Of a stretch of DNA of 46,250 nt, positions 18,931 to 43,209 are shown one piece after another. Origin of the DNA: Lysobacterales bacterium (lineage in GTDB: Bacteria > Pseudomonadota > Gammaproteobacteria > Xanthomonadales > SZUA-36); NCBI GenBank assembly GCA_014238945.1, contig JABAAB010000027.1, positions 1-46,250 on the forward strand. Reading direction: 5' to 3'. A program made the translations under genes and the position numbers. The notes under the pieces were generated by a model. That model had not been told where the DNA came from. It was given only the letters and a program-made list of their open reading frames with translations, and searched no databases. Every line of letters starts with the position of its first letter. Position 1 is the first letter of the stretch.

Positions 18931-18949
18931 CTCCAGACACGTTATGACT

Positions 18950-19538: not shown

Positions 19539-20195
19539 ATGACGATGCGATCTACAACACGCAAGCTGGCCTACCGCTTATCAGGCATCAAACCTTCGCC
19601 ATTGAGGCAGGGTCAGGATCAATCGTTCATATTTGTCCACATCAACAAAACAGCCGGCACCAGTGTGGGTAATGCGATTGGTCTGCCTGTAAAGGATCAC
19701 CTTACCGCAATGGAAATCATTGAACGGGTCGGTAAGGTCGCCTGGGACAACGCATTCAAGTTCAGTCTGGTCAGAAACCCATGGGACCGTGTGGTTTCGC
19801 TGTACGAATACCGACGCAAGAAGAACAAGACGCAAATCGCAACAAGAGGGATCACGTTTTCCGACTGGGTTGAACTGGTCTTTGGTGATAACCCGGACCC
19901 TTTCTATTGCAATAATCCGAAGTCATTTCAACCCCAGGTTGAATGGCTAAAGGATGATGAAGAAAAGTTCAGCATCGATTTTGTTGGGAAGTTTGAAACC
20001 ATCGCACAGGACTTCGAATACATCAGGAATGAAATCGGCATTGACGCCGTGTTGCCCCACCTCAATGCCAGTGACCGGGGCGGTTATCAGGCCTATTACA
20101 ACCAGTATACCCGTGATGTTGTAGCCCACCGGTTTGGCGAGGATAATGAGATGTTCGGTTACCGTTTCCAGCCCACAAACAAAGAAGGAGGGTAA
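19539..20195 (+). CDS. Sulfotransferase family 2 protein
   Basis: A 218-residue cytosolic sulfotransferase of the Sulfotransfer_2 type. FVHINKTAGTSVGNAIG carries the 5'-phosphosulfate loop that binds PAPS, and SLVRNPWDRVVSLYEYRR holds the Arg and Ser that contact the 3'-phosphate. These enzymes sulfate sugars of exopolysaccharides or glycolipids; the acceptor here is unknown. In-frame codons upstream (to 19446) would overlap crcB and add an Arg-rich tail. The ATG at 19539 has GGTGAGA in front and is the likely start. The last codons and the stop lie inside a terminator hairpin (20178-20211). Confidence 0.88.
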   Translation: MTMRSTTRKLAYRLSGIKPSPLRQGQDQSFIFVHINKTAGTSVGNAIGLPVKDHLTAMEIIERVGKVAWDNAFKFSLVRNPWDRVVSLYEYRRKKNKTQIATRGITFSDWVELVFGDNPDPFYCNNPKSFQPQVEWLKDDEEKFSIDFVGKFETIAQDFEYIRNEIGIDAVLPHLNASDRGGYQAYYNQYTRDVVAHRFGEDNEMFGYRFQPTNKEGG

Positions 20196-20211
20196 TCCCT
20201 CCTTCTTTGTT
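20178..20211. terminator. Bidirectional terminator-like hairpin with the sulfotransferase stop in its loop
   Basis: A perfect 15-base-pair inverted repeat (20178-20192 with 20197-20211) encloses the four-base loop TAAT, and the loop contains the TAA stop (20193-20195). The arms are purine/pyrimidine biased (AACAAAGAAGGAGGG), so transcripts of either strand end the stem with a U-rich arm. It separates the rightward sulfotransferase from the leftward TonB-dependent receptor, 19 bases past the receptor stop. Confidence 0.85.
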
Positions 20212-20230
20212 ATGACATGCTGAAGCTCAA

Positions 20231-22708
20231 TCAGAAATGATACTGGATCTCAACGCCGTAGGTGCGCGGTATCATCGGTACACCCGACAATGAACCAAAG
20301 AAATCACGGAACATGTCAACGTATTCACCTTCATCGGTCAGGTTACGTCCCCAGAGATATACTTCCCAGGATCCATCTCCATCGATCAAACCAATTCGGC
20401 CATTAAGGGTTGTAAGTGCATCAATGTGCCCGAAATCGATGGTGTTGGGAACGAAGTAATTGGCAATATCAAAGGTAAAAATTGCACCGTGGGTACCCGT
20501 CAGATTCCTCGATGTCTCGTTTTCAATGGTGGTGAAGTAATCCCCCACATGGTTCGCATCCAAACGGATCAACAAGTCCGCATTTGCACCACCGAGTCTC
20601 GTACGGTATTCAATACCGAATGAAGCATTGAGATCGGGAGCCAGGGGAAGCTTGTTTCCAGCGGCGTTAACCGGGTCTTTCCGTACACCACCGGGAACCG
20701 TTGGGTCCGGCACTTCTACAGACGTGCCACCCGGAAAATCGTCAAATTTTGCGTCGAGGATTCCCAGTGTCGCGTTCAGTGTCACACTGCTACTCACGTT
20801 AAAGACCGCTTCAAATTCCAATCCACTGGTTTCAACCTTTGCCGCGTTGCTGATTCTGATCGATGTGGCTTGTGTTCCGGATACCGGATCAAAACCAAGA
20901 TCAAAAAACTGGTTCACCTGGTAGTCATCATACATGGAGATGAACGCGGCAACGTTCAGCGAAAGACGGCCGTCCATGAATACCGACTTCATACCCAATT
21001 CATAACTGTCAACGGTCTCTTCGTCAAAATCGATACCTGCATCAAGATCGACCTGGGTCACGTAATCAAGGTTGAACCCACCGGACTTGAACCCGGTTGA
21101 ATACTTGGCGTATAAGTTGGTGTCGTCACCCATCGCATAACTGAGACTGACCGTGGGTGAAAAATTGGTGTAGGTATCGGAGTCGATCAGACCGCCCGCC
21201 GGTGTGTTTCCGATCAGGAAAACACCGGACTGGGTACCGTCAAGGTGATACAGAATATCCTTGGTTTCGTCGGAATAGCGGAATCCTACTCCGAGTCGCC
21301 AATGGTCGTTAATCTCGTAAGTACCGTTCATGAAGACAGCCCAGCTGTCCGTTTCAACTTCACCCGAGTTAAACGCCCCACCACCCGGCAATATACTGAA
21401 CAACCAGCCCGCCCAACCTGCTACGGCATTACGGGTAGTAACCGAGTCCTGGTTGTAATAATAGAACCCGGCAACATAATTGAAGGTGCCATTATCAGGT
21501 GAGATCAGCTGTATTTCCTGTGTGGTCTGTTCATACACATCCGTGTAGTCGATGTAAAGAAAGTCCAGAGGGGAAGTATCGGTATCATGATGATAAACGA
21601 TTTCGGTGTCACGGTAAGCGGTGATTGACCTCAGGCTGTAGCCATTGTCCAGATTGTAATCAATATTGAGATTGGCACCGAAAATGTCTCTTTTTTCCGT
21701 GCTTCTTTCACTAAAACTAATCTGGCCGTATTCGGGAGAGAAATGGTTCAACGTAGACCCAAAAGTATCGGTGAAAGGTTCGCCATTAATGACATCCCTG
21801 GATGATCTCAGATCATCCATTGCAATGTTGATGTCCAGGTTTTCATTTGGTTGAAATCGCAACTGAGCGCGATAGGATTGAGTATCAACATTTTTTGCGG
21901 CCGTGGTTGTATCCGGAGACGTGGGCGGGGCCACCGACCAGGCTGCGCAACCCGGGGGTGTTGTTGCTCCCGGAAAATGACATAGCGGAACACCAAATAC
22001 CGGACCCACGCCGGGGATGACAAAATTTGCAGTCTGGGGAACCATGCTGGGATCCCAGATGTTATCGACATAACCGTCACGTTCGCGGTGTGAGCCCGAT
22101 ATCCGGGCGCTGACGGTTTCACTGAAGGGGAAATTTGCCACGACCTTTAACTCCAGGGCATTGTAGTTCCCCAGATTGGCACTTACATCAAATTCGGAAT
22201 CAGGCCCCGGTTTCGTGGATATCATATTGACCGCACCACCGACCGTATTCTTACCAAACAATGTTCCCTGCGGCCCACGCAGTATCTCAATGTGATCAAG
22301 ATCGACCAGGTCCTGGTTCATGGCCGGCCCTGGTCCCAGGTAGACGCCATCCAGATAAACACCTACCCGGGAGTCAAAACCAATGTTACGTGAATTTGCA
22401 CCTACGCCCCGAATCTTGACCTGGGCGCCGAAATCAGTGCCCTGAGTTATCAAGACATTTGGGATGTATTCACTCAGTTCCCGCAATTCCTGTACACCCG
22501 AGTGGTCTATTGCATCAGCACCAAAGACCGAGATCGCAATGGGTACTTCCCTCAGGTTTTCAGCACGTTTTTGAGCGGTTACCAGGATCTCTTCGATTGC
22601 GAGGTCTTCGCCCTCTTGTGCAACCGCAGTCGTACCAAGAAAAGCTGAGCCAATAAGCACAGAGGATATTACTTTAAATATCAATAACTTATTTGTCTTG
22701 ATTCTCAT
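20231..22708 (-). CDS. TonB-dependent outer-membrane receptor
   Basis: An 825-residue receptor. After a signal peptide (ends near AVA-QEGED) it has a TonB box (EEILVTAQKR), a plug domain with VKIRGVGAN and IEILRGPQGTLFGKNTVGG, and a 22-strand barrel ending in IPRTYGVEIQYHF with the terminal aromatic residue needed for assembly. The plug and the TAQKR box are typical of the large marine/caulobacterial group that imports unknown small organics rather than known siderophores. The substrate is unknown. Energy would come from a TonB system such as the one at 13757-18930. A good sigma-70-like promoter lies 86-114 bases upstream. Confidence 0.94.
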   Translation of the reverse strand: MRIKTNKLLIFKVISSVLIGSAFLGTTAVAQEGEDLAIEEILVTAQKRAENLREVPIAISVFGADAIDHSGVQELRELSEYIPNVLITQGTDFGAQVKIRGVGANSRNIGFDSRVGVYLDGVYLGPGPAMNQDLVDLDHIEILRGPQGTLFGKNTVGGAVNMISTKPGPDSEFDVSANLGNYNALELKVVANFPFSETVSARISGSHRERDGYVDNIWDPSMVPQTANFVIPGVGPVFGVPLCHFPGATTPPGCAAWSVAPPTSPDTTTAAKNVDTQSYRAQLRFQPNENLDINIAMDDLRSSRDVINGEPFTDTFGSTLNHFSPEYGQISFSERSTEKRDIFGANLNIDYNLDNGYSLRSITAYRDTEIVYHHDTDTSPLDFLYIDYTDVYEQTTQEIQLISPDNGTFNYVAGFYYYNQDSVTTRNAVAGWAGWLFSILPGGGAFNSGEVETDSWAVFMNGTYEINDHWRLGVGFRYSDETKDILYHLDGTQSGVFLIGNTPAGGLIDSDTYTNFSPTVSLSYAMGDDTNLYAKYSTGFKSGGFNLDYVTQVDLDAGIDFDEETVDSYELGMKSVFMDGRLSLNVAAFISMYDDYQVNQFFDLGFDPVSGTQATSIRISNAAKVETSGLEFEAVFNVSSSVTLNATLGILDAKFDDFPGGTSVEVPDPTVPGGVRKDPVNAAGNKLPLAPDLNASFGIEYRTRLGGANADLLIRLDANHVGDYFTTIENETSRNLTGTHGAIFTFDIANYFVPNTIDFGHIDALTTLNGRIGLIDGDGSWEVYLWGRNLTDEGEYVDMFRDFFGSLSGVPMIPRTYGVEIQYHF

Positions 22709-30464: not shown

Positions 30465-32432
30465 CTAGTCGGCACGCCTGATTCGGCCGACAAACCAGTA
30501 CGCCAACAGCAAAAAAGCGGCAAACCCGACCGTCTCCGCAAGCCATTCCGGTCCCAGCCATCCGGTTCCAATGCCCTCGGGTTTGCGATTCAGTACAAAC
30601 GCGACCCCCGCGATTCCGACCCCCAACAGGCCCTCTCCACCGACAAATCCCGAACTCAGCAGGACACCACGTTCCCGACGGTCCTGTTTTTCCTGCTGGT
30701 TGGTTGCCCGTTTCTCCATGATGTGACGCAACATGCCACCCAGGAAGATCGGAGTCATCGTTGACACGGGTAAATAAACCCCCACCGCGAACGGCAGGGA
30801 AGGAATTTTCAATAGTTCACACACCAGCGTGATTCCGACACCGAATCCTACCAGCACCCAGGGCAGATTCTGGTCCAGTACCCCATCAATCACCAAACGC
30901 ATCAGGGTGGCCTGAGGTGCAGGAAGTTCGGCGCTGCCAAAGCCGAATGCCTTGCCCAGCAGTATCACCGCGGCGCAGACAAATACCGCCGAGGTCAGCA
31001 CGCCAATCAGTTCCGCCCGCTGCTGGCGTTTTGGCGTGGCGCCGATCAGGAAACCACTTTTCAAATCCTGTGATGTATCACCGGCAATGGATACGGCAAT
31101 GGCGACTACACATCCGACGACCAATGTCGCTGCTTTTCCGGTTTCATCGGTCCAGCCCATCAACAGAAATATGGTCGCAGTTCCGAGCAGTGCCGCAATG
31201 GTCATGCCACTGGTCGGGTTGGATGTGACTCCGACCAGGCCGACAATTCTAGCTGCCACCGTAACGAAAAAGAAGGCAAATACAGTCACACACAAGGCCG
31301 CTGCGATGCGCATACCCATGCCACCGACATTGCCGAACGCCCACGGGGCAATACCGAGAAAAAGCACGATCAATAATGCACCGGCACCAACCGTCTTCAG
31401 TGACAGATCCTGCCGGGTACGGGGTACATCAAGCGCCGGTTGATCACCCGTGGGGCCGCCCAGTTGACTGGCGCTGGCCCTGAAGCTGTGAACCATCACC
31501 GGCAAGCTGCGTATCAGCGTGATAATTCCCGCGGCAGCAACAGCGCCCGCACCGATATAACGGACATAGCGCGACCAGATATCACCGGTCGGCATATCCC
31601 GGATCAGGCTCAGTGTTTCCGGATAAAAGGGAAGTTCACGTGCATCACCCCAGTAGGCAATTCCGGGAATAATAATCAGTGCGGACAGCAGACCACCACC
31701 GACCATGATCAATGCCACCCTTCGACCCAGGATGTAACCCACGCCAAACAGGGCGGCAGACAGGTCAAAACCGACCTGGGCTTTCTTGATAAACGGAATC
31801 GTCAGTGTCGCGTGACCCGGAATCAGGTGCAACCAGGAGGTCAGAAACTTGAAAAAGGCACCCATGCCGATACCGATAAAAATATTCCTGGCGCGGTTGC
31901 CGCCCACCTCGTTGGCGACCAGCACCTCCGCACAGGCCATGCCTTCAGGGTAAGGCAGTTTGCCGTGTTCACCCTCGATCAGGTAACGCCGCAACGGAAT
32001 CATGAACAATACACCCAGCAGACCACCCGACATGGCCAGCACCGTCATCTGTAAAAGACCGGGTGCCATGTTCCACATAAACAGGGCCGGCAGGGTAAAT
32101 ATGATGCCACTTGCCAGCGAACTCGACGCCGAACCGGTGGTCTGGGCAATGTTGGCCTCAAGAATGGTGCTGTTGATACCGGTACGTTGCAGTGCCCGGA
32201 ATACGGCCACCGTCATCACGGCGACGGGAATCGAGGTACTGATGGTCAGACCAGCACGCAGCCCCAAATAGGCATTGGCCGCACCGAAGATAATGCCGAA
32301 CAATACGCCCAACCCGATACCTTTAAGGGTGAATTCAGCCGGGCTTTCACTGGCACTGACATAGGGTTGGTACTGCTCCCCCTCTTCCAGTGGTGCGTAG
32401 GCTTTGGGATCCAGTCCCCTTTTGTCAGTCAC
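30465..32432 (-). CDS. OPT family oligopeptide transporter (second copy)
   Basis: A 655-residue, roughly 16-helix OPT transporter. The N-terminus (SPAEFTLKGIGLGVLFGIIF) and motifs such as NIAQTTGSASSSLASGIIF, PLRRYLIEGEHGKLPYPEG, GFLIGATPKRQQ and FVGGEGLLGVG are family-typical. The start is the GTG at 32432, not the ATG 15 codons upstream, because AGGAGAAAGG stands immediately before the GTG and the product then starts VTDKRGLDPKAY. It shares clear homology with the OPT protein at 11300 but has a longer N-terminal part and is closer to the PF03169 prototype. The substrate is unknown. Confidence 0.93.
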   Translation of the reverse strand: MTDKRGLDPKAYAPLEEGEQYQPYVSASESPAEFTLKGIGLGVLFGIIFGAANAYLGLRAGLTISTSIPVAVMTVAVFRALQRTGINSTILEANIAQTTGSASSSLASGIIFTLPALFMWNMAPGLLQMTVLAMSGGLLGVLFMIPLRRYLIEGEHGKLPYPEGMACAEVLVANEVGGNRARNIFIGIGMGAFFKFLTSWLHLIPGHATLTIPFIKKAQVGFDLSAALFGVGYILGRRVALIMVGGGLLSALIIIPGIAYWGDARELPFYPETLSLIRDMPTGDIWSRYVRYIGAGAVAAAGIITLIRSLPVMVHSFRASASQLGGPTGDQPALDVPRTRQDLSLKTVGAGALLIVLFLGIAPWAFGNVGGMGMRIAAALCVTVFAFFFVTVAARIVGLVGVTSNPTSGMTIAALLGTATIFLLMGWTDETGKAATLVVGCVVAIAVSIAGDTSQDLKSGFLIGATPKRQQRAELIGVLTSAVFVCAAVILLGKAFGFGSAELPAPQATLMRLVIDGVLDQNLPWVLVGFGVGITLVCELLKIPSLPFAVGVYLPVSTMTPIFLGGMLRHIMEKRATNQQEKQDRRERGVLLSSGFVGGEGLLGVGIAGVAFVLNRKPEGIGTGWLGPEWLAETVGFAAFLLLAYWFVGRIRRAD

Positions 32433-33081
32433 TACCTTTCTCCTGGTACTCAGATTATTTTTGTGCGCTGAGAACAATTATACGCATGTTTGGTACAGCG
32501 AATACCTCCAGCTGTCACCTGCTGCAAACGACCCACGCAAAGATCCATCGCCAAGCTGTAACCCCGTATGGAAATGCAACCAGACCATGGAAATTCGCGT
32601 TCCATGCCTGCCCGGAATCACAACTTCAAAGGGTATACAAAGCAAGATCCCGGCTAATGTCATACATTCGCGGGAGCGATGGTGATTGCGCCCCATGCCC
32701 GACGTCTTTTCAATAGCCAGTGACAACGCCGATCTGCCGTCAACCTGCCCGACCTCGGCAGAACAACCGGTTGCCCGTGGCCAGGCCGCAAGATGGGAGT
32801 CGGGCCAGCGTGACTCAAAGCCTGTTTCTCACCGATGAGTGTCTTTACCGATGTGCCAACCCGGTAATCGCCAGTGTGTCATGTCCAGCAATGACAGTTA
32901 TGATTCCATGCGCAAGCCTCAACACTTGCAAGGTTCAGGCACAAACCGGGCGGGAATTGCGGGAAACAAATCAACAGCAATACGTTGATTTCCTCGGAAA
33001 TGGTTTTTATGCTTTCTATCCACTTGAAGCTTCCCGTCCACTACAATACTTGTGGGGGGGTCAGGACAGGAAAGACTGATT
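32433..33081. promoter_or_regulatory. 650-base region between the OPT gene and the PqqD/kinase region
   Basis: It must hold the leftward promoter of the OPT gene and any rightward promoter of the 33082-34792 genes. I see no tRNA, no terminator and no convincing gene; the frames at 32720-33079 and on the minus strand lack family resemblance and ribosome-binding sites. Confidence 0.4.
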
Positions 33082-33260: not shown

Positions 33261-34496
33261 ATGGACGTTCGACCTGCAGATAATTTAGCCGTTGGGCTCC
33301 CCGCACTCTTCGAAAGCATGGCCGGCGCCGTCGAACATGCCTGGGCGGCTACCAACCGGAGCCCGGATGATCTCCCGCTGATCGCGGCAGAGGTCCTCGA
33401 CCGCCACCGCACGGAATTGACCCGCCTGAGCTTTGCAGACATTGCTGAGGAGGCCCTGGCAACCCGGGGCCCGCAATTGAATGCTGACAGCCCGTTTGGC
33501 AATCCTCCCATTACCTGGCTCATGGCGGATCACTTCTGTATTGAGAGCTATCTGTGGCTAGAAAACTCCACCGGCATCCACGACCACGGCTTCAACGGTG
33601 CCTGGATGAACCTGGTTGGCAACTCCATCCATCGTCAATTTCAATTCGATGGCGCCGAAACGTTAAGCCCCAGTCTCCGTGTGGGTTCATTGATTCCGAT
33701 AAACTGGGAGATACTGGAGCCGGGCGACATACGGCAGATTCCCCGTGGGTCCGAATTCATCCACGACTTGTTTCACCTGCACCGGCCCACGGTGACACTC
33801 ATTATCCGGTCCTTCTCAAAGCATTCCAGGGACGCACCTCGCCTGCAACAATCGTACACCGGCTTTGGAGATTGCAGCTTCGCCAGGGATTCATTCGGGC
33901 GACCGGACTGGGAAGTACTGCAAAAACGGCTCATGTACAGCCTCGATGCAGTAACACCTGATTTGGCTTTTGACCTCTTCTCCCGGCGACTTGGAGAAGA
34001 TTCGCTGGAGACAGCGTTAATGATGCTTAAATTCATCATTCTTCACCTCAAACCCGAGCCCAGGGCCGCCTACCTCAGGGCCTTCAAGGCCGCTTACGGT
34101 CCTGTCGCCGGGCGCCTGGTTGAGGCATTGCTGCTTTATCGCCAGAATTACACTCTTCTGCTGTTTCGCCGGCTTGCTGAGGACCCGGAGGACATGTTGT
34201 TGTTCGGACTTTTGCGCGAACCCACTGACCTCACCACGGTTCTGGAGCGCATCTCCACAACAACAAAAGCCAGTAACCCGGAAATTTGGCTTTTTGAACG
34301 GCTGCGGTCAATCTCCGATCGCGCCCAGGGGCAGGACACTGAATGGGCCATTCGCCTGGATGAAGCTGCGCTGGTTGCCCTGCGAAATCAGCTCACCGGC
34401 CGATCGGAGCCCTCGGGCGATTATAGTGCCGAAGACCTCGCCTTACAGAGCTTTTTTCTCAGTCATCAATCTCCTCTTCAGGTCTTGTGGAAGTAA
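33261..34496 (+). CDS. Cupin-like protein resembling thiol dioxygenases, linked to PqqD
   Basis: A 411-residue cytosolic protein. Residues of about 85-185 look like a cupin barrel of the cysteine-dioxygenase type: H107 and H109 in STGIHDHGFNGAWMNL (H-x-H), the turn EPGDIRQIPRGSEF, and H168 in FIHDLFHLHRPTVTLIIRS as the candidate third ligand (H172 and H174 are also close). The C-terminal 220 residues are helical, Leu/Arg-rich and unassigned. The PqqD-like gene overlaps or abuts its 3' end. By family knowledge three-His cupins bind iron and oxidise thiols; whether this protein is catalytic, and on what, is inference. I see no exact family. Confidence 0.7.
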   Translation: MDVRPADNLAVGLPALFESMAGAVEHAWAATNRSPDDLPLIAAEVLDRHRTELTRLSFADIAEEALATRGPQLNADSPFGNPPITWLMADHFCIESYLWLENSTGIHDHGFNGAWMNLVGNSIHRQFQFDGAETLSPSLRVGSLIPINWEILEPGDIRQIPRGSEFIHDLFHLHRPTVTLIIRSFSKHSRDAPRLQQSYTGFGDCSFARDSFGRPDWEVLQKRLMYSLDAVTPDLAFDLFSRRLGEDSLETALMMLKFIILHLKPEPRAAYLRAFKAAYGPVAGRLVEALLLYRQNYTLLLFRRLAEDPEDMLLFGLLREPTDLTTVLERISTTTKASNPEIWLFERLRSISDRAQGQDTEWAIRLDEAALVALRNQLTGRSEPSGDYSAEDLALQSFFLSHQSPLQVLWK

Positions 34497-34498
34497 GG

Positions 34499-34792
34499 AT
34501 GTTCAAGCGTCAGGATCGATTTTTACGCAATGACGAGTTTGCCAGTGAACAAATTGATGGCACCGTCTGGTTGTGTGACCGTCTGAGTGGCAACTTTCAG
34601 CGTCTCAATGCCGTTGGCTCTTTCATCTGGTGTGAACTTGCCGGATCCGGGCACAACTTCGAGGAACTGCTTGCCGCCCTGATTGAAACCTTTGATGTAG
34701 AGCCGGACCAGGCACGTAATGACCTGCAGGCATTCCTCGCCGCACTCATCGCCGACTGTGCGCTCATGCAAAAGGATTTCGATCAGGAATAA
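34499..34792 (+). CDS. Free-standing PqqD-like peptide-binding protein
   Basis: A 97-residue PqqD-family protein. The typical pattern is visible: DGTVWLCDRLSGNFQRLN followed by AVGSFIWCEL, then a helical C-terminal half (EELLAALIETFDVEPDQARN, DLQAFLAALIADCAL). PqqD domains hold the leader peptide of ribosomally made precursors for a modifying enzyme (RiPP recognition element). The ATG at 34499 has GGAAG five bases before it; a GTG at 34487 would add four residues and overlap the cupin-like gene. Synthesis is likely coupled to that gene. A second PqqD domain lies in the kinase at 39020. Confidence 0.85.
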   Translation: MFKRQDRFLRNDEFASEQIDGTVWLCDRLSGNFQRLNAVGSFIWCELAGSGHNFEELLAALIETFDVEPDQARNDLQAFLAALIADCALMQKDFDQE

Positions 34793-35507
34793 AGCCCTGA
34801 TGTACAGGTTGCTGGGTTGCAATACTTTGGTTACCTGACTGTTCCGCTGCATCCGGTGTAACGTCCCCGACCCGACCCCTCAAATTCATACCTGTCAACT
34901 GATCGATGCCCTCGATTTCGCCATTGATGATGGCCTAGTGCATGTCTCGTTTGTTCAATCCGCCCGGGAAGACTAGAAAACTGCCTGATCATGGCTGCGC
35001 ACCAAATTAACTTCTGAGGACAATCACAGGCTGCCTTGTCAATCAGGCGGTAAGAACGCCAGAGACCGGTATCTTGATTCATTTACCGTGTCTGAGTTAT
35101 GGCAAACCATTGATGTGGAAAGAATTTGTTTATGGCTTGGTAACTGCTGTAAGCAGGGTGTTTTAGAAGAAGAGTGTGAGCTGCCCCGCCGCGAAACTGA
35201 ATGCATAATGGGAGTGAGTCGCAATTTGCATATCAATTTGCAAATTCATCCTGCTGATTCAGACTCCCGGATTTCTTAAATCAAACACTGTCCGCAATTC
35301 ATGCAATGCCGCCATTCGCGCGGACTGAACACCCTGGAGGATACGAAGCAGAGTATGGTCTATAGCAGTCGGCATGATCATTGCATAAGTGAATGCATGT
35401 GTTTAATCAAGAGGCAACGCAGTGCGCAGATTTCGAAAGGGTCGAGGTCGCGTGGTCCGGTTTTCCGGATGGTGCGTCAGGTTTAGTAATTTTAAAGGGG
35501 TCTTATA
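34793..35507. other. 715-base region between PqqD and the large lipoprotein gene, with possible decayed coding
   Basis: No gene is called. One plus-strand frame after a TGA (about 34839-34976) reads like protein (CQLIDALDFAIDDGLVHVSF) but has no start, so it may be a remnant. A GTG frame at 35088-35279 is unsupported. Direct 9-base repeats CAATTTGCA occur at 35222 and 35234. The ribosome-binding site AAAGGGG of the next gene lies at the right end. Confidence 0.4.
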
Positions 35508-38500
35508 ATGAATCGTGTACATTCTGTGCTACTGTCGCTGTCGTTGGCTTTGGTTGGGGCCTGTGCCAGTGTGCCACCGGACCCGGTAGAACGTACTGGA
35601 TTCCCGGTAGAACGTACTGGATTCAGCAGCCGGGATTTGCTCGGAATGAATGCGCCGGCAGGTACCTACATGACAGGTGCCTCCACCAATGGAAACCAGG
35701 CGTCTGAAAATCAGTTGGTATCAGGGCAGGTTTACCCGACCGATGGACCTTACATTGTCGAACTGATGGATGTGCCTGTTGGTGAGTATGACCCAAACAA
35801 CCAACTTGACCGCAAGGGTGACGCAGGGCGGCCTGACAGCCCCGTCTCGAAAGAACTGGCCGCATTGTTGCGGGAAGAGGCCATGCTGATGCCGCCCCAG
35901 CCCGGTCTGGCACAGACACAGATGGATGGTCCCGGACAGTTTGGACCCACGCCCAGCACCAATTTTGACAGCCTTGACTACGATGATTGCTGCGGCGGCG
36001 GCGGTAACGTACCTCCGGACCCGGAACTGGCTGTTGGCTCCGATGAAATCATCGCGGTAGTTAATGTTGCCTTCGAAATCTACGACAAGTCCGGTAACCT
36101 GTTGAGCGGGCCGACTACGTTTTCGAGCCTTTTCAGCGGGGTATCCGGTTGCACCAGCAGCCTGTTCGATCCCAACGTGCTCTATGACGAGGAGTATGAC
36201 CGTTTCTTCCTGGCAATCGATGGTGGCGGGACCAATTACTGCGTTGCTGTCAGTGCGACGAATGATCCGCTCGGTGCCTGGAACCTGTATGTTTTAGCTG
36301 CGGCTTCTGGAAATGATTCCTTCGATTTTCCCCACGCCGGCATCGGCCGGGACGCAATCTATATGGGCGGCAACATTTTTACAAATGGAAGCTTCTCACA
36401 AGCCAAGGTCTTCGCCATCGATAAATTGGCAATGTACAACGGAAGCTCGACCACTTATGCAAGCCAAACCACTGGCTCGGAAAGCACACCCCAACCAATG
36501 AACCTGCACGGCTGGAACCAGGGCACATGGCCTGTTTCCGGACCGCATTACATCCTCACGGACGGTCCTTTCGATGGCGCCGAGTACGGCGTATGGTCGT
36601 GGAACGATCCATTTAACGCCGGTGGTACTTTTGTAAAAGTCGGTAACGTAAATCTGCCCAACTTTACCGGAGCCTCCATTGGATATCCCGTGGATGTACC
36701 CCAGAGTGGTGGTGATGACCTCCAGGCTGGCGACTGGCGTGGACTGGATGCAGAATACCGCAATGGCAATATCTGGATGACCAATAGCGGGTCCTGTAAC
36801 CCGGGTGGCGGCACGGTCGATTGTGTGCAATGGGCGCAGATTGACCCGACTGGCCCCAGCGTTGTGAATGCCGGCATATACGGCAGCGACGACGAGTACC
36901 GTTTCTTCCCTGACCTGGTTGCCAATCACTGCGACGACATGGCCATTGGCTATTCCAAGAGTTCAACCAGCATGTATCCCAGCGTGTTTGTGACCGGCCG
37001 GGAGAGTGGTGATGCCAGTGGAACGCTTCAGTCCGAAGTTGAGATGAAGGCGGGCGAAACGGTCTATACCTCATTTGAAAGCAGCCCCCCCCGTCGTTGG
37101 GGAGATTACAGCGGAATGACCATCGATCCGGATGGCCTGACTTTCTGGTATATGGGGCAATACAGCAAGTCCGGACTCAGCGGCAGTACCAACTGGGGCA
37201 CTTACGTCAGTTCCTTCAGCTACCCGAATTGTGTGGTCACACCTTCAGCTCCTGGACCGGCAACCAATCCCAGCCCCTCGAACGGCGCCACTGGGGTAGC
37301 CGTGGATGCAGATTTGTCCTGGAACGCGGGTTGGACAGCGACCAGCCACATCGTCACTTTTGACGGGGTGACCTATGCCGAACAGGCTGGCATAACCTTT
37401 GACCCCGGCCCTCTGGAGTCTTTGACCAATTATACCTGGCGGGTCGACGAAAAGAACGCCCACGGCACAACCACCGGAGCCTCCTGGACCTTCACCACGC
37501 TCGAGGTCACACCACCGGCACAGCCAACCGGGGTGACCGCAACCGCACTTTCAAATAATGATGTACAGATTGACTGGACTGACGAGTCGAACGATGAAAC
37601 CGGTTTTCTGATCGAGCGGCAGGTCGCCAGCGCGTGGACACAGGTCGGTTCTGCATCAGCCAATGCCACCTCGCATGTTGACTCATCGGGTCTGGCCGCC
37701 GAAAACACATATGACTACCGCGTGATTGCGACCAATTCGGGCGGCTCTTCATCTCCTTCGTCACAGGCTGCTGCCACCACCAAGGCGGCGTGTAGTGCCA
37801 GCAAAGATTTTTTACAAAATGAGTGGTACATGATCGGGTTCCCCTGCAACACGTTCCCGCACAACACGGTGGCGGACATCTTTCCTGGTCTCAGTATTTA
37901 CTTCTACCGGGTTGATGCGGAAAATAACGCCTACTACGTCATGGGTGCTTCTGACACAGTAGAAGAGGGTGTTGGCTACTTCTTCTACCAAACCAGCCAG
38001 TCTTCCTTCGCGCTGTCCATCGATGGCCACCCCAACGGCCACACCATGGTAGACCTGGTGGGGAAACCGGAAGGCCAGTTCAATATGGTTGCCCAGTCTT
38101 ATTACTTCACGACACCAGGTACGTCATTTTGGTCCCAGACGGCGTTCAAGAAAGGCAATCAAAATAAAACCATGTCACAAGTTGATAACCTCAGGAATAA
38201 TGGTGTATTCAGGTGCGATGAAACCCCACCCGATCCCAGTAAGTGTCTGGTCTGGCGAAAGAGCAATCGGTGGAACGGTAGCGCCTACCAGGTATACGAT
38301 GGATCCTTAAACGAACAAGGCCCGATGGATCCATTTGACGCATTGTTTGTGAAGGTTTATAACGATGACATGCAACTGGTCTTCCAACCGGGAGCGAATA
38401 ATAACCTCGCACCGGACTCCGCCGAGTCAACATCGACCGATGGGCCAATGGCCGCTGAGGTTGGTAGTAATGGCCCCGGTGGTGGTGGTGGCAATGGCAA

Positions 38501-38999
38501 TGGCGGTGGCAATGGCGGTGGCAATGGCGGTGGCAATGGCGGCGGCGGTGGCGGTGGCAGTGGCGGTGGCGGGTTTGAACCCTGGTTTGCGCGTTTGATT
38601 GCCGAATCCGGAGCCTATTCGGACCCGGGCAACGTCTTCGGGCAACTGGAGTTTGCAACCGATGAGCTGGATACCTACGACAGTGAGGAACCGTATCCGT
38701 TCGGCTCCAACTACCTGAGCATCTTGTTTAACAATCCCGCTTTCGACGAAGTGTACTGGGGTTATACCACCGACTTGCGCTCTATTCAGACACCGCTCGG
38801 TGGTGAGTGGTCGTTTCTGGTGCGATCCAATGGCATGCAAACGGTGACCCTGCGTCTGGAGGATATCGATTTCAGTGGGTTCGCCACAGTGCAAATTTAC
38901 GATGAACAGACTCTCATGTGGGTCGACATGATGACCGAAAACGCTTACTCATTCGACGTACAGGCCGAGACCCACGCGTTCAGGTTGAGGCTCGAGTAA
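35508..38999 (+). CDS. Large putative surface lipoprotein with propeller-like, fibronectin III and Gly/Asn-rich regions
   Basis: An 1163-residue exported protein. The N-terminus (basic MNRVH, hydrophobic core, LVGAC with Cys19) fits a lipoprotein signal. Residues of about 165-585 have repeated Asp/Gly-rich strands (PDPELAVGSDEIIAVVNVAF, FDPNVLYDEEYDRFFLAIDG, RWGDYSGMTIDPDGLTFWYM) suggesting a beta-propeller. About 590-662 is an Ig/FN3-like domain, about 668-760 a fibronectin III domain (PTGVTATALSNNDVQIDWTD), about 765-970 an unassigned domain, 989-1022 a Gly/Asn-rich linker, and 1023-1163 a final beta-rich domain. A strong AAAGGGG ribosome-binding site precedes the ATG. It lies between two PqqD-domain genes; whether it belongs to that system is open. 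Confidence 0.8.
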   Translation: MNRVHSVLLSLSLALVGACASVPPDPVERTGFPVERTGFSSRDLLGMNAPAGTYMTGASTNGNQASENQLVSGQVYPTDGPYIVELMDVPVGEYDPNNQLDRKGDAGRPDSPVSKELAALLREEAMLMPPQPGLAQTQMDGPGQFGPTPSTNFDSLDYDDCCGGGGNVPPDPELAVGSDEIIAVVNVAFEIYDKSGNLLSGPTTFSSLFSGVSGCTSSLFDPNVLYDEEYDRFFLAIDGGGTNYCVAVSATNDPLGAWNLYVLAAASGNDSFDFPHAGIGRDAIYMGGNIFTNGSFSQAKVFAIDKLAMYNGSSTTYASQTTGSESTPQPMNLHGWNQGTWPVSGPHYILTDGPFDGAEYGVWSWNDPFNAGGTFVKVGNVNLPNFTGASIGYPVDVPQSGGDDLQAGDWRGLDAEYRNGNIWMTNSGSCNPGGGTVDCVQWAQIDPTGPSVVNAGIYGSDDEYRFFPDLVANHCDDMAIGYSKSSTSMYPSVFVTGRESGDASGTLQSEVEMKAGETVYTSFESSPPRRWGDYSGMTIDPDGLTFWYMGQYSKSGLSGSTNWGTYVSSFSYPNCVVTPSAPGPATNPSPSNGATGVAVDADLSWNAGWTATSHIVTFDGVTYAEQAGITFDPGPLESLTNYTWRVDEKNAHGTTTGASWTFTTLEVTPPAQPTGVTATALSNNDVQIDWTDESNDETGFLIERQVASAWTQVGSASANATSHVDSSGLAAENTYDYRVIATNSGGSSSPSSQAAATTKAACSASKDFLQNEWYMIGFPCNTFPHNTVADIFPGLSIYFYRVDAENNAYYVMGASDTVEEGVGYFFYQTSQSSFALSIDGHPNGHTMVDLVGKPEGQFNMVAQSYYFTTPGTSFWSQTAFKKGNQNKTMSQVDNLRNNGVFRCDETPPDPSKCLVWRKSNRWNGSAYQVYDGSLNEQGPMDPFDALFVKVYNDDMQLVFQPGANNNLAPDSAESTSTDGPMAAEVGSNGPGGGGGNGNGGGNGGGNGGGNGGGGGGGSGGGGFEPWFARLIAESGAYSDPGNVFGQLEFATDELDTYDSEEPYPFGSNYLSILFNNPAFDEVYWGYTTDLRSIQTPLGGEWSFLVRSNGMQTVTLRLEDIDFSGFATVQIYDEQTLMWVDMMTENAYSFDVQAETHAFRLRLE
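35584..35625 (+). repeat. Two tandem 21-base repeats encoding PVERTGF twice
   Basis: CGGTAGAACGTACTGGATTC occurs twice in a row (copies start at 35584 and 35605) with only the last base differing. It duplicates seven residues directly after the lipobox region of the large protein. Confidence 0.95.
38475..38576 (+). repeat. GGTGGC/AATGGC microsatellite encoding the Gly/Asn-rich linker
   Basis: Imperfect repeats of GGCGGTGGCAAT give a run of glycines with regularly spaced asparagines (about residues 989-1022 of the large protein). Such arrays change length by slippage and act as flexible linkers before a terminal domain. Confidence 0.9.
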
Positions 39000-39019
39000 T
39001 TTGGTGAACATCGGCCAGG

Positions 39020-40282
39020 GTGACTGTGGGTGCTGAGCAACCCACTGCCCTGCCGGGTGCGGCGTGGATAGAGGCACACATCCACGCATTTGAGGTGGGT
39101 TCTGCGCTTGCCCTGGTACGCCCCGGCTGCGAAAAGATCTGGCTGTTGAACGACACCGCCAAGGCGATTTGGCAGAGGTTGGTGCGGGCTGAACGAGCGG
39201 AGGAAATTACCCGGGCGCTTGCGGAACAGTTCGGGACTGGCCCCGAAATCCTGCGGTCTGATATCCAGACCACCCTGAAGCAATGGGCGGCCGAAGGCCT
39301 GTTGCCTGGCCTGCGGACTCCCGCAATTACTCCGTCCGCTGTCGCGCCGGAAAGAGATTCAGGCGATGGCACCCAGGCTACGGCCGAAGTTTTCATTACA
39401 GTGAACATGGCCGGCAAGGTAGTGGACATCGGCGTGGCGCCTCAAAGCCTCCAGCCCCGCGTGTTGCATCTGATGGGTCACCTCACTTGCCCCACGACCC
39501 GGTCAACGGACGACCATTTAGTCTTGAGCCAGCATAACGATCAATGGTACTTACGCCACAATGGGGCCTTGATCGGCCGTTACGGTTCGACGGACGAGGG
39601 GCTGATCGGATTGAGAAACCAGCTAATCGCACTGGGCCTGCGCGAACTGGATACGCTGGTGACGCTGCATGGCGCGGCGGCAACCCTCAATGGTCAATGC
39701 GTGGTTTTTCCGGCGCCCGGAAGCAGCGGCAAATCCTCGCTGGCCTATGCACTGGGACACGCTGGCTGGTCCGTGCTCGCCGAGGACGTGACGCCCGTGC
39801 TGCGCAAATCCCGCCAGGTCCTGCCTTTTCCCACCTCGTTCAAATTCCGCCGGCCGAGTCTGGCGGTGCTGCAGGAATTCACCGGTGGCCCGGTCGAACA
39901 CATTTTATTCACATCGGGCGGTGAGGAGCAATTTCACGCGCCGGCGTTCCCGGTGACTGAACCGCTTACGAAACACCCGGTCCACGCGATGGTCTTTCCA
40001 CGCTACGTAGCGGGTGCCCGCCTGGCCTGGCGTCCGCTCAGTCTGCAGGAATGCTTGTTAAAATTGCTCGAATCCGGCTCGGCCATCACCGCCGATGACA
40101 TTGAACTGAAATTCCCGGAATTGCTGGATTGGCTGGAGCAGACCCCCGCCTATGAGATGATCTTCGACGCCCTGGCCCCCGCGCTGCAATGGCTTGAGAG
40201 TCTGTCCATTTTGCCCCGGGTGGTGCATAATGACGGTGGCGGAAACACGTTCAGGGGTTGGGAACCTTGCGCAAAGGGGTAA
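39020..40282 (+). CDS. PqqD domain fused to an HPr-kinase-like kinase
   Basis: A 420-residue cytosolic protein. Residues of about 20-98 are PqqD-like (EKIWLLNDTAKAIWQRLV, LKQWAAEGLL). Residues of about 120-400 resemble the HPr kinase/phosphorylase catalytic domain: the P-loop FPAPGSSGKSSLAYAL (Lys238) and LAEDVTPVL (Asp256), the acidic motif that follows the P-loop in HprK. The family knowledge used is that HprK-related kinases with PqqD partners occur in peptide-modification loci, and one (the paeninodin kinase) phosphorylates a lasso peptide. The start is the GTG at 39020 (another GTG lies at 39026), 20 bases after the large lipoprotein gene. The candidate substrate peptide gene starts five bases after its stop. 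Confidence 0.85.
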   Translation: MTVGAEQPTALPGAAWIEAHIHAFEVGSALALVRPGCEKIWLLNDTAKAIWQRLVRAERAEEITRALAEQFGTGPEILRSDIQTTLKQWAAEGLLPGLRTPAITPSAVAPERDSGDGTQATAEVFITVNMAGKVVDIGVAPQSLQPRVLHLMGHLTCPTTRSTDDHLVLSQHNDQWYLRHNGALIGRYGSTDEGLIGLRNQLIALGLRELDTLVTLHGAAATLNGQCVVFPAPGSSGKSSLAYALGHAGWSVLAEDVTPVLRKSRQVLPFPTSFKFRRPSLAVLQEFTGGPVEHILFTSGGEEQFHAPAFPVTEPLTKHPVHAMVFPRYVAGARLAWRPLSLQECLLKLLESGSAITADDIELKFPELLDWLEQTPAYEMIFDALAPALQWLESLSILPRVVHNDGGGNTFRGWEPCAKG

Positions 40283-40287
40283 CACAT

Positions 40288-40512
40288 ATGAGCGAAAAAA
40301 AGGAAATGCGAAGTGCTGATGCATCACCGGCGGCGGATGTTGACCAGTCGCGCCGCAAGTTTGTCACCGAGGCAGGCAAACTTGCCTACCGGGCGCCCAT
40401 AGCCATCGCTTTCAGTCTGGCCTTATCAAATGAAGCGGCGGCGTCACATCTGTTGTGCCCCCCCCCGGGTCCCATTGAAATCCCCTGTGATCCAGAAACT
40501 TTTGGTCACTGA
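40288..40512 (+). CDS. 74-residue peptide with leader-like N-terminus and Cys/Pro-rich tail; candidate substrate
   Basis: The ATG at 40288 has AAAGGGG about eight bases upstream and lies five bases after the kinase stop. The N-terminal 20 residues are charged, followed by SRRKFVTEAGKLAYRAPIAI and a hydrophobic stretch ending NEAAA, which looks like a Tat or signal-type element with an AxA-like cleavage site. The 22-residue tail (53-74) starts SHLLCPPPG and contains Cys57 and Cys67 and several prolines. Small peptides of the KxAYxAP-type beside PqqD and HprK-like genes recur in proteobacteria (recalled, not searched). A modified or phosphorylated exported peptide is the most attractive reading; a plain small exported protein is the alternative. 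Confidence 0.7.
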   Translation: MSEKKEMRSADASPAADVDQSRRKFVTEAGKLAYRAPIAIAFSLALSNEAAASHLLCPPPGPIEIPCDPETFGH

Positions 40513-40514: not shown

Positions 40515-40608
40515 ATTGGGGCCAGACCATTGACTTTCTGAGTGGGCTCCCCCGCCCCGTAACCTCTAATTAATGGGGCCAGGACCCTAAAGTTTCTGAG
40601 CGGGCTCC
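40515..40608. repeat. Two imperfect REP-like repeats with GGGGCCAG cores
   Basis: Two copies about 57 bases apart (40515-40550 and 40572-40608) share GGGGCCAG-ACC, TTTCTGAG and GGGCTCC. An inverted copy of the core (CTGGCCCCAATT) lies near 41141-41152. They flank the truncated dehydrogenase remnant and resemble short palindromic elements of the REP type. Confidence 0.7.
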
Positions 40609-40654
40609 TTCCCACCCGTAGCATCAACGATGCGTATGCCGCTGCATTCCATGC

Positions 40655-41017
40655 TCAAAGGCGTACAGCCATCGACATTTTCAACGACGCCCGGAGAGGC
40701 CGGATGAACAGCATGCGTGCGGGCTGACTATCTCTACTTTGGTCAAACCCCTTGTTTGGTCCAACTATGGTTGACGGCGAACACTCCTCGACTTCCTTGA
40801 AAACGGAAATCCCGTACGCCCGTAGCCTGGCGACATTGGGGTCGCTGTTCATCGAGTGGAATCCGCCGGCAGCATGCCATGTTGATCCGGCTGTCCGTTG
40901 TTTTCGTTCAACCAGAACGACATCTGACCAACCCAGTTTGGTCAAATGATAGAGCGCAGACGCACCGACAATACCACCGCCAATGACAACAACCCGGGCA
41001 TAATCTTTCATATTCAC
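40655..41017 (-). pseudogene. Truncated FAD-dependent dehydrogenase (dimethylglycine/sarcosine dehydrogenase-like) remnant
   Basis: From the ATG at 41017 about 85 residues match the N-terminus of DAO-type flavoproteins: RVVVIGGGIVGASALYHLTK (FAD-binding GxGxxG), SDVVLVERKQ, TAGSTWHAAGGFHSMN and DPNVARLRAYGI. After about GPNKGF the similarity stops and about 25 unrelated residues lead to a stop at 40655. A complete enzyme has 400-850 residues, so this is a decayed fragment. REP-like repeats on both sides suggest deletion or rearrangement. Confidence 0.8.
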
Positions 41018-41410
41018 TCACGTTTGTTATGTGGTCATTCAAAGCACACACCACTGCTCAACGCATTGCTCGGTCTCTGGAGTGCCATAAATTAGAAGTA
41101 TAAGCTGATACCAGGGGAATTGAGGAACGAAATAGTCTTTGCCCTGGCCCCAATTTTTTAATTCTGCCCGGTGTAACCCTTTTGCCCCTACAGACGTATT
41201 CGTCCGTTAAGTTGACTATTTATATGGAATTTTAATGGTAAAAATGACTGTCAGCCGGTCCGCGTGTCCTCCCTGCAGGCATTGGAGGTTCGGCTTGAAC
41301 GAAGCAGGCATTGGGATAAGGCTATGACGGGTATGGCTTCTTTGCTAGGATCATATCTGCCAGCACTAAATAATCCGGCATCGGCAGTAATCCTGAACGA
41401 ACCGATTTTC
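41018..41410. promoter_or_regulatory. Region between the dehydrogenase remnant and the ECF sigma gene
   Basis: It holds a REP-like core (CTGGCCCCAATT, near 41141) and the ECF-type promoter at 41172-41200. The codons from 41264 are in frame with the sigma gene, but the extra 49 residues do not resemble a sigma N-terminus. The leader would thus be about 200 bases long if translation starts at 41411. Confidence 0.55.
41172..41200 (+). promoter_or_regulatory. ECF-type promoter of the sigma/anti-sigma operon
   Basis: TGTAACC (41172-41178), 16 bases, CGTATT (41195-41200). The same motif with identical spacing stands upstream of the EF-hand-like gene (42698-42726). The AAC-containing -35 and CGT -10 are typical of ECF sigma factors. 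It indicates autoregulation. Confidence 0.75.
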
Positions 41411-41992
41411 ATGGAATCAGTAACGCAGAGTATCGAACTGAAGCATGAATCTGATGAACAATGCTGGTCAAAATTAATGGTAAGCGCACAGGCGGGCAAC
41501 GAGTCCGATTACCGGCAATTGCTCACCGAGTTGACTGGCGTGATCTACAATTTCCTGCGCAGTCGTTTTGGCAATCACCACTTTATTGAGGACTGTGTGC
41601 AGGAATCCCTGATTGCTATTCACCAGGCCCGCCATACCTATGACCGGCAACGTCGCTTCCGGCCCTGGCTGTTTGCCATCGTACGCCACAAGGCCATAGA
41701 TACACTGCGCAAGCAACGTACGCGGCAAAAAGTCACCAGTCAATTCAAGGGGGAGCAGGAAATCCAGAACCGGACGAGCCACAAGAGTGATGCAGAGAGC
41801 GAGTTGATCAAGGGTCGTTTACTGGAGCTATTGTCTATACAGCAGCGGGAGGTATTGATTCTGACCAAGTTCATCGGTTTCAGCGTTGCTGAAGCGGCAG
41901 AAAAACTCGGGATTTCTGAAAGCCTGGTAAAAGTTCGTGTACACCGGGCGATCAACAAACTAAAACAGACTATGGAAGCAGACACACTGTGA
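41411..41992 (+). CDS. ECF RNA polymerase sigma factor
   Basis: A 193-residue extracytoplasmic-function sigma factor. Sigma-2 shows NHHFIEDCVQESLIAIHQARHTY (core binding, -10) and RRFRPWLFAIVRHKAIDTLRK; sigma-4 shows LLSIQQREVLILTKFIGFSV and the helix-turn-helix AEAAEKLGISESLVKVRVHRAINKL split across its two helices. I chose the ATG at 41411; in-frame starts at 41324 or 41264 would extend the N-terminus. Its stop overlaps the GTG of the anti-sigma gene. A matching promoter motif stands in front of its own operon and in front of the gene at 42841, so these are its likely targets. Confidence 0.9.
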   Translation: MESVTQSIELKHESDEQCWSKLMVSAQAGNESDYRQLLTELTGVIYNFLRSRFGNHHFIEDCVQESLIAIHQARHTYDRQRRFRPWLFAIVRHKAIDTLRKQRTRQKVTSQFKGEQEIQNRTSHKSDAESELIKGRLLELLSIQQREVLILTKFIGFSVAEAAEKLGISESLVKVRVHRAINKLKQTMEADTL

Positions 41993-42645
41993 ACAAGCAT
42001 GACACCCTGATCTCTGACCTCAGCCGCGATCTGGTGCCTGTTTCGCCTTCTCCGAATATCAACATGCTGGCCCTGGCCTGGTTCCTGTTGAGCGCAATTT
42101 ACGTGGTTGCAGTTACCCACCTGATTGGCCCCATCCGACCAGGTGCGTATTCGCAACTCGGCACGGAGCCCCGTTTTCTGTTGGAGATGTTGTTGGGTGT
42201 GGCAGCAATTCTCTGGATCAGCCTGCTGGCGTTTCGCTCTGCCGTGCCGGCTGCTCTGAGCAGACCATTTGCTATTACCGGCCTGATTCTGATGACATTC
42301 TGGCTGGCACAATATGTCACCGGATTCATCAGCCCTGCACTGGAACCATCCACGCTGGGCAAGCGTAACTATTGTTATATCGAAACGCTGGTTTATGCGT
42401 TGCCCGTGATCGTCGCTGGTCTGTTCCTTATTCGCCGACTCTATCCCCTGAGTCCGATACGTACAGCCATGTCCGTAGGGCTGGTGGCCGGCATGTTACC
42501 GGCCCTCTATATGCAACTGGCCTGTATGTATGAGCCGGCGCACATACTCACTTTTCATATCCTCCCCGGCTTGCTTATGGTGGGCGCAGGCGCGGGTATC
42601 GCAATGAAATGGAGTTTGCGTCAACGCAGTTCCGACCCACAGTAA
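41989..42645 (+). CDS. NrsF-type (DUF1109) membrane anti-sigma factor
   Basis: A 218-residue inner-membrane protein with six helices and a short N-terminal cytoplasmic part (LISDLSRDLVPVSPSP), which matches the DUF1109/NrsF family. In Caulobacter NrsF holds the ECF factor SigF inactive at the membrane until a metal or oxidative signal releases it. GTG at 41989 overlaps the sigma stop, which is typical for sigma/anti-sigma pairs. Cysteines in KRNYCYIETL and LACMYEPAH sit in membrane-loop positions where NrsF family members are thought to sense. The signal here is unknown. Confidence 0.88.
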   Translation: MNKHDTLISDLSRDLVPVSPSPNINMLALAWFLLSAIYVVAVTHLIGPIRPGAYSQLGTEPRFLLEMLLGVAAILWISLLAFRSAVPAALSRPFAITGLILMTFWLAQYVTGFISPALEPSTLGKRNYCYIETLVYALPVIVAGLFLIRRLYPLSPIRTAMSVGLVAGMLPALYMQLACMYEPAHILTFHILPGLLMVGAGAGIAMKWSLRQRSSDPQ

Positions 42646-42697
42646 ATTCAAGAAATCTCCGTTACGTACCCAGAAAAATTTTTTATTTTAGTGAGCT

Positions 42698-42726
42698 TGT
42701 AACCTTTATTCCCTGGCCCACGTATC
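42698..42726 (+). promoter_or_regulatory. ECF-type promoter of the EF-hand-like gene
   Basis: TGTAACC (42698-42704), 16 bases, CGTATC (42721-42726), matching the promoter upstream of the sigma gene in -35, spacing and -10. It lies 115 bases before the ATG at 42841. Confidence 0.75.
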
Positions 42727-42840
42727 CGCTTTCAAACCTGTAAAGGCCTGGTGAGCCGCCCTCCGAATACGGTGATTTCACACACACGCCAAACCGGTTT
42801 TACCAGAAGCGTTTTACTGACCAATAAGGAAAGCATCAGC

Positions 42841-43209
42841 ATGAGTAGATTCAAGTTAGTCACGACGATTGCCCTTGCCGGCACCATTGCCCTATTGACT
42901 TCCAGCGTTTACGCCAAAGAGCGTACCAAGGGTAGAGGAGCACCAGGAATACCCGTCATTTATGTGACCTCGCAGGATATGTATTACGACACCCTTTTAC
43001 TGGGGGACCTGCCTTATAACGAAACCTCGAATTTCCAAAAGTTGGAGCCGGGTCTTGGACCATCCGGTGTGCAAACTGAATTCGGTCCGGGTGACACCGA
43101 ATACTATGGTGGACGTTGGTGGGTAGACGCGAACGAAAACGGCTACATGGATGAAGAGGATGTCTACTTCCTGTGCCCATTGCTGGGTCCGGGCAGAAGT
43201 GAAATCTGA
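42841..43209 (+). CDS. Small secreted protein with an EF-hand/dockerin-like calcium loop
   Basis: A 122-residue exported protein. AAGGAAAG precedes the ATG at 42841; the signal peptide is cleaved near VYA-KER. The mature part is about 98 residues, Gly/Pro/Tyr-rich, and includes WWVDANENGYMDEEDVYF, where D-x-N-x-N-G-x-x-D-x-E-D matches a calcium-binding loop. The tail contains one Cys. It is preceded by an ECF-type promoter like that of the adjacent sigma gene and followed by a terminator, so it is a single-gene target of that regulon. I do not recognise the family. Confidence 0.85.
   Translation: MSRFKLVTTIALAGTIALLTSSVYAKERTKGRGAPGIPVIYVTSQDMYYDTLLLGDLPYNETSNFQKLEPGLGPSGVQTEFGPGDTEYYGGRWWVDANENGYMDEEDVYFLCPLLGPGRSEI

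Follow-up and report, generated by a model that had tools for sequence, protein, structure and literature searches.

A putative ribosomal-peptide modification cassette with PqqD domains, an HprK-like kinase and a thiol-dioxygenase-fold cupin in a Lysobacterales bacterium

The contig JABAAB010000027.1 of a Lysobacterales bacterium (46,250 nucleotides, one complete contig, G000:C35 in our own labels; hereafter the window) carries on its forward strand the genes for a cupin-like protein, a PqqD domain, an exported protein of 1163 amino acids (aa; hereafter the giant), a PqqD-HprK fusion and a 74-aa peptide, in this order. We interpret this locus, with a probability of about 0.6, as a ribosomal-peptide modification cassette in which the 74-aa peptide would be the precursor. 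The interpretation builds on gene content, recurrence, motifs and a predicted fold, from which we infer the binding, two reactions, an export route and a role for the giant. The precursor would begin like a substrate of twin-arginine export and also contain the motif aromatic-x-x-Pro. Both PqqD domains, the free one coupled to the cupin and the one fused to the kinase, would bind the motif Y34-P37 and thereby bring the peptide to two enzymes. The HprK-like domain would phosphorylate a Ser or Thr of the peptide (S53 or T71); oxidation of C57 or C67 to sulfinic acid may be the task of the cupin. The product would be exported, probably by twin-arginine translocation (Tat), and would act with the co-encoded giant. 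Of these two reactions, we regard the oxidation of cysteine as the less certain.

The proposed steps resemble reactions described for lasso peptides and other ribosomally synthesized and post-translationally modified peptides (RiPPs). Lasso precursors are phosphorylated on their C-terminal Ser by HprK homologues, and the phosphate can receive a hexose from a nucleotidyltransferase (available part of PMC8498205). PadeB1, a PqqD-type protein, binds its own leader at about 5 nM (available part of PMC5067487), and several RiPP recognition elements (RREs), including PqqD, bind W/Y/LxxP-type sequences (available part of PMC12710340).

An earlier note on this DNA had proposed the cupin-like, PqqD, PqqD-HprK and peptide genes as one possible peptide-modification system. 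All four are open frames (Table 1), and the two PqqD domains that it named, out of six in the whole genome, both score above the Pfam cut-off; the giant and the aromatic-x-x-Pro motif had escaped it. The ATG of the free PqqD lies two bases past the cupin stop, so that the two are probably translationally coupled, and the peptide ATG lies five bases past the kinase stop. The giant, encoded between both gene halves, appears to be a member of the set.

Table 1. Features of the putative cassette, in window coordinates.
Feature	Position	Strand	Evidence
Cupin with predicted three-His thiol-dioxygenase fold, 411 aa, helical C-terminal half	33261..34496	+	open frame, AlphaFold2 model and structure matches
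Free PqqD domain, 97 aa	34499..34792	+	Pfam PqqD 51.7 bits (gathering cut-off 23.4, PF05402)
Exported giant resembling a lipoprotein, 1163 aa, with fn3 domain	35508..38999	+	fn3 E 1e-7; LVGAC lipobox in the signal, by eye
C-terminal domain of the giant, common to other peptide-linked giants	38535..38996	+	recurrence in other genomes
PqqD-HprK fusion, 420 aa, GTG start	39020..40282	+	Pfam PqqD 44.9 bits; NCBIfam kinase match
Putative precursor peptide, 74 aa	40288..40512	+	open frame and family motifs

Tat signals combine an S-R-R-x-F-hydrophobic start with a hydrophobic stretch and an AxA site. The window peptide appears by its sequence to begin in this way, with SRRKFV (R22-R23 at 40351-40356), the hydrophobic APIAIAFSLAL and AAAS. 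Y34-R-A-P37 (40387-40398) conforms to the Y-x-x-P of lasso-type leaders. From the AxA-like signal end onward, S53 (40444-40446) and T71 are the sole Ser/Thr residues, and the candidate cysteines are C57 (40456-40458) and C67.

Peptides of this kind recur in similar company. In the same genome, contig C2 encodes in a row a 1419-aa exported protein, a small peptide with an RR pair, a PqqD and an HprK. In genome G649, a small RR peptide is accompanied by a PqqD-HprK fusion and a nucleotidyltransferase-like gene. A strict pattern for the RR region, applied to the small open reading frames of 47 loci (L045-L091) and the window, matched only the window, C2 and G649 peptides. With a hidden Markov model (HMM) of these three (A1), a search of 41 genomes found more peptides beside HprK or PqqD in G010, G019 and G051. 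Another, in G006, follows a giant. The nine-peptide set A5 has the aromatic-x-x-Pro motif throughout (9/9), with an RR pair ahead of it in eight; that all nine seeds have the motif makes its further recovery partly circular, though the first three had been chosen by a pattern without the motif.

The A5 HMM matched in 23 of 370 class genomes, with 30 matches outside this genome, two of them without a locus. The remaining 28 comprise 18 small peptides with RR and aromatic-x-x-P, nine longer proteins, and one case (L195) in which the script picked the wrong frame. A PqqD, HprK or nucleotidyltransferase HMM match was located within 1.5 kb of 10 of the 18 small peptides versus 0 of 24 weak decoy loci from an earlier search, the seeds of these three HMMs having been partly assigned by eye. 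Read as in L237, the L195 peptide has YTAP and adjoins a PqqD-HprK fusion, which would make the count 11/19. Loci of the genome itself (L184, L207) and seed loci (L092-L096, L114) were left out of these counts. PqqD-HprK fusions adjoin family peptides in L046, L236, L237 and L240, and the motif is present in all 32 peptides collected. The serine of a GS pair found shortly after the signal-like part in many of them is a candidate for the phosphorylation site of the family. In the window peptide, AAA-S53 takes the place of this pair.

Within the fusion, the PqqD domain spans about 39113-39304 and the kinase domain about 39653-40204. The latter contains H217, a P-loop (G237-K238-S239) and an acidic pair (E255-D256), of which H217 and E255-D256 are presumably functional residues of the HPr-kinase type. 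By these residues the domain would be an HprK-like kinase in the general sense, and H217 and G237-K238-S239 are invariant in six aligned rows. The best NCBIfam model is HprK-related kinase A (TIGR04352; 59.2 bits, E 3e-16). Because this score is below the 200-bit cut-off, the kinase is, by sequence, a relative and not a member of TIGR04352. The HPr-rel-A system combines this kinase with a PqqD (TIGR04353); the window kinase and free PqqD match the two models with 59.2 and 14.3 bits, yet under the cut-offs (200, far above the kinase score, and 35 for the PqqD). No published account of the HPr-rel-A system was found in the literature searched, which left most subscription journals outside its scope. 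An AlphaFold2 model of the kinase (pLDDT 42.5 on six rows) was set aside. The idea that the fusion is unique to the window was rejected, as PqqD-HprK fusions also occur in L013, L045, L046, L047, L236, L237 and L240. Kinase matches L008 and L009 in related genomes belong to different HprK loci, of which the G051 cassette is one, and neither is a copy of the window; a single-sequence scan of viral contigs gave three kinase candidates, none of which was confirmed. On plasmid pMt-1 of Methylobacterium tardum (L013, 6087-12763), a PqqD-HprK fusion adjoins an annotated nucleotidyltransferase and large hypothetical proteins. In the genome of the window, locus L049 (contig C97, 7883-11382) combines two PqqD with an HprK and a nucleotidyltransferase-like gene amid glycan-type genes, as judged by eye; the RR pattern matched no small peptide there.

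The cupin matched no Pfam or NCBIfam model above cut-off. Its relatives were collected in one scan of a genome collection of 84,980 species, in which invented helper rows directed the search to the motifs HxH and IHxLFH; 99 stretches matched and tblastn confirmed 47. They span Myxococcota, Verrucomicrobiota, Acidobacteriota, Bdellovibrionota, Actinomycetota, Gemmatimonadota, Planctomycetota and Pseudomonadota. Alignment A4 retained 45 of 49 rows, the near-copies L143, L146 and L168 and the second L179 copy being left out. W99, H107 (codon at 33579-33581), H109, G113, A114, G120, I160, H168 and H172 are invariant in it. The three-His feature reported earlier is thus borne out, with H107, H109, H168 and H172 identical in 45/45 rows, although partly by construction, as the search patterns contained HxH or IHxLFH. 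H107, H109 and H168 would, judging from these rows, make up the metal site.

The AlphaFold2 model of the cupin (pLDDT 90.3 on 45 rows) was compared with the PDB using Foldseek, which returned 1265 matches, 148 with E <=0.001. The best 50 of them were all thiol dioxygenases or their kin (best E 5e-7; TM by target 0.46-0.66), the kinds being cysteine, 3-mercaptopropionate, cysteamine, plant cysteine oxidase and ergothioneine. On these 50 matches the model would have a cupin barrel of the type of cysteine dioxygenase (CDO) and cysteamine dioxygenase (ADO), and the cupin looks like a thiol dioxygenase as far as the model goes. ADO oxidises N-terminal cysteines of proteins at a 3-His iron site (available part of PMC8503633). 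The window cupin shares the predicted fold and the 3-His pattern with CDO, 3-mercaptopropionate dioxygenase (3MDO), ADO and plant cysteine oxidases, but differs from them in that the model has additional helices at the N-terminus and that its C-terminal half, about 195 residues long, is helical. In cupins of Corallococcus and Myxococcales (L140, L141, L143, L146), there is a weak resemblance between the C-terminus and the second half of PqqD (E 6e-4 to 0.09), which is only suggestive of a PqqD-like piece.

Among 39 family genomes, the cupin was found only in this one, besides seven weak matches at E 0.02-0.3. No match was found in plasmids. In viral contigs a single-sequence scan gave 11 candidates with none confirmed, and the steered scan there gave 0/55. 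Two weak matches among 369 class genomes were discarded: L012 lies inside a histidine-kinase-like frame, and L011 has a stop within an 83-aa frame.

Phylogenetically, the cupin of the window groups as sister with that of the Myxococcota isolate ANT-56 (L137; support 100/100), the nearest of the 47 relatives with 43-46% identity. The 3.8-kb L137 contig carries the end of a giant with FG-GAP repeats, a 53-aa peptide, an HprK-like gene, a Peptidase_S24 gene and the cupin, which is cut by the contig end. NCBIfam gives no family for the HprK-like gene; our own HMM matched it with E 4e-12, and it has the P-loop and His. The peptide matches the peptide HMM with E 8e-16, but is itself one of the nine seeds. 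The earlier note had asked whether homologues of the cupin, the kinase and the peptide ever co-occur in other genomes, and in L137 they do. The reading as one system gains support because most of the set recurs in the distant phylum Myxococcota, with the modification of the peptide still an inference from gene content. In the contigs of at least 3 kb of the L137 assembly, the only PqqD detected overlaps another giant gene at its start, and this gene extends beyond the end of its contig; we would guess that this contig and the cupin contig form one locus.

Among all 47 cupin loci, an HprK lies within 10 kb of the cupin in five, four of which have a PqqD as well; HprK-HMM matches with E > 1e-6 were not counted. 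About 0.03 HprK loci would be expected by chance in the 0.75 Mb around the cupins (from 65 places in 397 phylum genomes), a rough figure across different phyla and search methods. In L148, a cupin, NTP_transf_5, PqqD and HprK are found within about 5 kb. Pfam also identified Transglut_core3 and Asn_synthase (L154, L183), Asn_synthase (L138), lantibiotic dehydratases (LanB; L140, L161), YcaO-TfuA (L180), a radical SAM enzyme with a C39 exporter (L159), and C39 exporters (L145, L160) around cupin relatives. By local search at 1e-6, 17/47 cupin loci have a RiPP hallmark versus 0/20 control regions of 20 kb, which came from genomes chosen for an HprK or cassette match and not phylum-matched to the cupin loci. 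Ten of the 17 had themselves supplied queries or HMM seeds, and the other seven (L137, L139, L141, L150, L152, L157, L167) were identified by local search alone. Because the remaining 30 loci show none of the tested hallmarks, the cupin family is, from its gene neighbourhoods, often but not always in peptide clusters. In an Acidimicrobiaceae metagenome-assembled genome (L138, 1362-15043), a lasso-like cluster contains a cupin, an HprK, two PqqD, a sulfotransferase and Asn_synthase; its lasso-like precursor is encoded at 2316-2498.

Several observations weigh against a single modification cassette. Among the cupin loci, the 30/47 free of tested hallmarks include many of Verrucomicrobiota. Neither the L138 precursor nor one of the two lasso-like precursors of L183 has a Cys, and the only one that the L137 peptide contains is found just past its YxxP. 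That peptide has YTRP but no RR pair. There is no Ser at the C-terminus of the window peptide, where lasso kinases act. The kinase reaches 59 of 200 bits against TIGR04352, and has E-D where its aligned relatives have D-D (3/5) or D-E (2/5). A 219-aa RR protein without aromatic-x-x-P (L206/L239) adjoins an HprK and a nucleotidyltransferase match, and 8/18 small class peptides have no cassette gene even in 10-15.5 kb (seven loci, L229-L235), three of these seven loci belonging to genomes (G160, G242, G095) that each have a cassette-linked peptide on another contig. Finally, the cupin-PqqD pair, separated from the giant by a 0.7-kb gap, may form a separate transcript.

The alternative that survives best concerns the cupin alone. 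It could be a peptide oxygenase with another target, for example for hydroxylation or decarboxylation, or a binder of small thiols, instead of a peptide-cysteine dioxygenase, and we regard this as a real possibility somewhat short of even odds. The cupin-linked precursors without Cys would fit it. So would the Pfam results, since none of the 45 rows matched CDO_I or another thiol dioxygenase model; NCBIfam gave only the PqqD model, in 2/45, and no thiol dioxygenase match was obtained for the window cupin with either database. A profile comparison with CDO_I (three sequences) placed HxH in register, with P 4e-4 but a weak probability of 34%; the values for Cupin_2 (twelve sequences), P 0.083 and 0.7%, were poorer, which counts for a thiol dioxygenase. 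However, the best 50 PDB matches without exception, and the histidine pattern HxH...H, fit a thiol dioxygenase.

We consider it rather unlikely that the peptide is plainly exported by Tat and left unmodified, with the PqqD domains as signal-peptide chaperones and the kinase regulating PqqD or the giant. The aromatic-x-x-P motif does overlap the hydrophobic stretch of a Tat-like signal in 31/32 peptides, the exception being the L137 peptide without RR, and many core regions share no modifiable residue beyond the GS pair (19/32 peptides, where shuffling predicts 5.6). Yet the L137 peptide retains Y-x-x-P without an RR pair, and nine longer proteins matched by the same HMM, mostly of Tat type by eye, have aromatic-x-x-P in 0/9. 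Moreover, kinase, PqqD and nucleotidyltransferase of the same types modify lasso precursors (available part of PMC8498205). Least probable are two neighbouring systems, in which the cupin and free PqqD would act on another peptide or substrate, apart from the giant, PqqD-HprK and peptide: the gap between the pairs, the sister cassettes without cupin and, weak matches aside, its restriction to this genome among the family genomes speak for them, whereas in L137 the sister gene of the cupin lies two genes behind the peptide and HprK, and L148 groups the cupin closely with NTP_transf_5, PqqD and HprK.

As a modification cassette, the window shares an HprK-like kinase, a PqqD-type RRE and a short precursor with aromatic-x-x-P with the lasso modules K (HprK homologue, paeninodin) and N (nucleotidyltransferase, pseudomycoidin). 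A nucleotidyltransferase-like gene as in module N is found in several sister cassettes, with Pfam confirming NTP_transf_5 only in L148, and none was seen adjoining the window cassette. Unlike lasso clusters, the window has neither Transglut_core3 nor Asn_synthase (lasso protease B2 and cyclase C) among the eight proteins scanned with Pfam (33.2-43.2 kb), the rest having been inspected by eye. Its peptide differs from lasso precursors by the Tat-like start and the missing C-terminal Ser, and the set by having PqqD and kinase in one chain and a giant exported partner. The kinase and PqqD are of a known kind, here without lasso enzymes and with another type of precursor.

This precursor type was not shown in the literature searched; judged from listings and the starts of abstracts, that literature likewise held nothing on this cupin family as a peptide-tailoring enzyme or on peptide-Cys oxidation tied to RiPPs. 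The analysis provides candidate precursors for HprK/PqqD/nucleotidyltransferase cassettes that stand without lasso proteins, a proposed docking motif for their PqqD domains, and a thiol-dioxygenase-fold family without a Pfam model that is present in several unrelated RiPP cluster types. If the cupin indeed oxidises peptide cysteines, this would be a modification not tied to RiPPs in that literature. We would further suggest, only tentatively and as a proposition that is doubtful in its entirety, a new class of ribosomal peptides whose leader is both Tat signal and PqqD docking site. An RRE-fused HprK would phosphorylate these peptides, and in a cupin branch they would be S-oxygenated to cysteine sulfinic acid by an undescribed RRE-partnered thiol-dioxygenase family; the peptides would then be exported as partners of giant surface proteins. 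The same oxygenase family would serve lasso, LanB, YcaO-TfuA and radical-SAM clusters in several phyla.

Counterparts of the final 154 residues of the giant occur at 15 places, spread over 8/41 genomes with this one included, and a family peptide lies within 1.5 kb in 7/15 of these loci. The domain is 33% identical over 115 aa to that of the C2 giant. On contig C44 of the same genome, a giant C-terminus similar by eye is followed by a family peptide. The N-terminal parts of the giants diverge, and by eye the C2 giant has a metalloprotease-like HEIGHQ stretch.

A scan for promoters and terminators gave counts not above shuffles (3 vs 4.8; 8 vs 8.7). Right after the peptide stop (40515-41017), there are two alike imperfect direct repeats (GGGGCCAG...TTTCTGAG[T/C]GGGCTCC), and 3' of them a short minus-strand frame resembles, by eye, the N-terminus of an FAD-dependent oxidoreductase. 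Directly downstream, 41264-43209 encodes an extracytoplasmic function (ECF) sigma factor, an anti-sigma membrane protein of NrsF type (59 bits with Pfam NrsF) and, without family, an exported protein of 152 aa; this group could regulate the neighbouring set. Farther upstream, as judged by eye, two big membrane proteins resemble oligopeptide (OPT-type) transporters (11300-13036 and 30465-32477), and energy-transduction genes of ExbB/TonB type lie in 13745-22708, ahead of a gene on the opposite strand that resembles those of TonB-dependent receptors.

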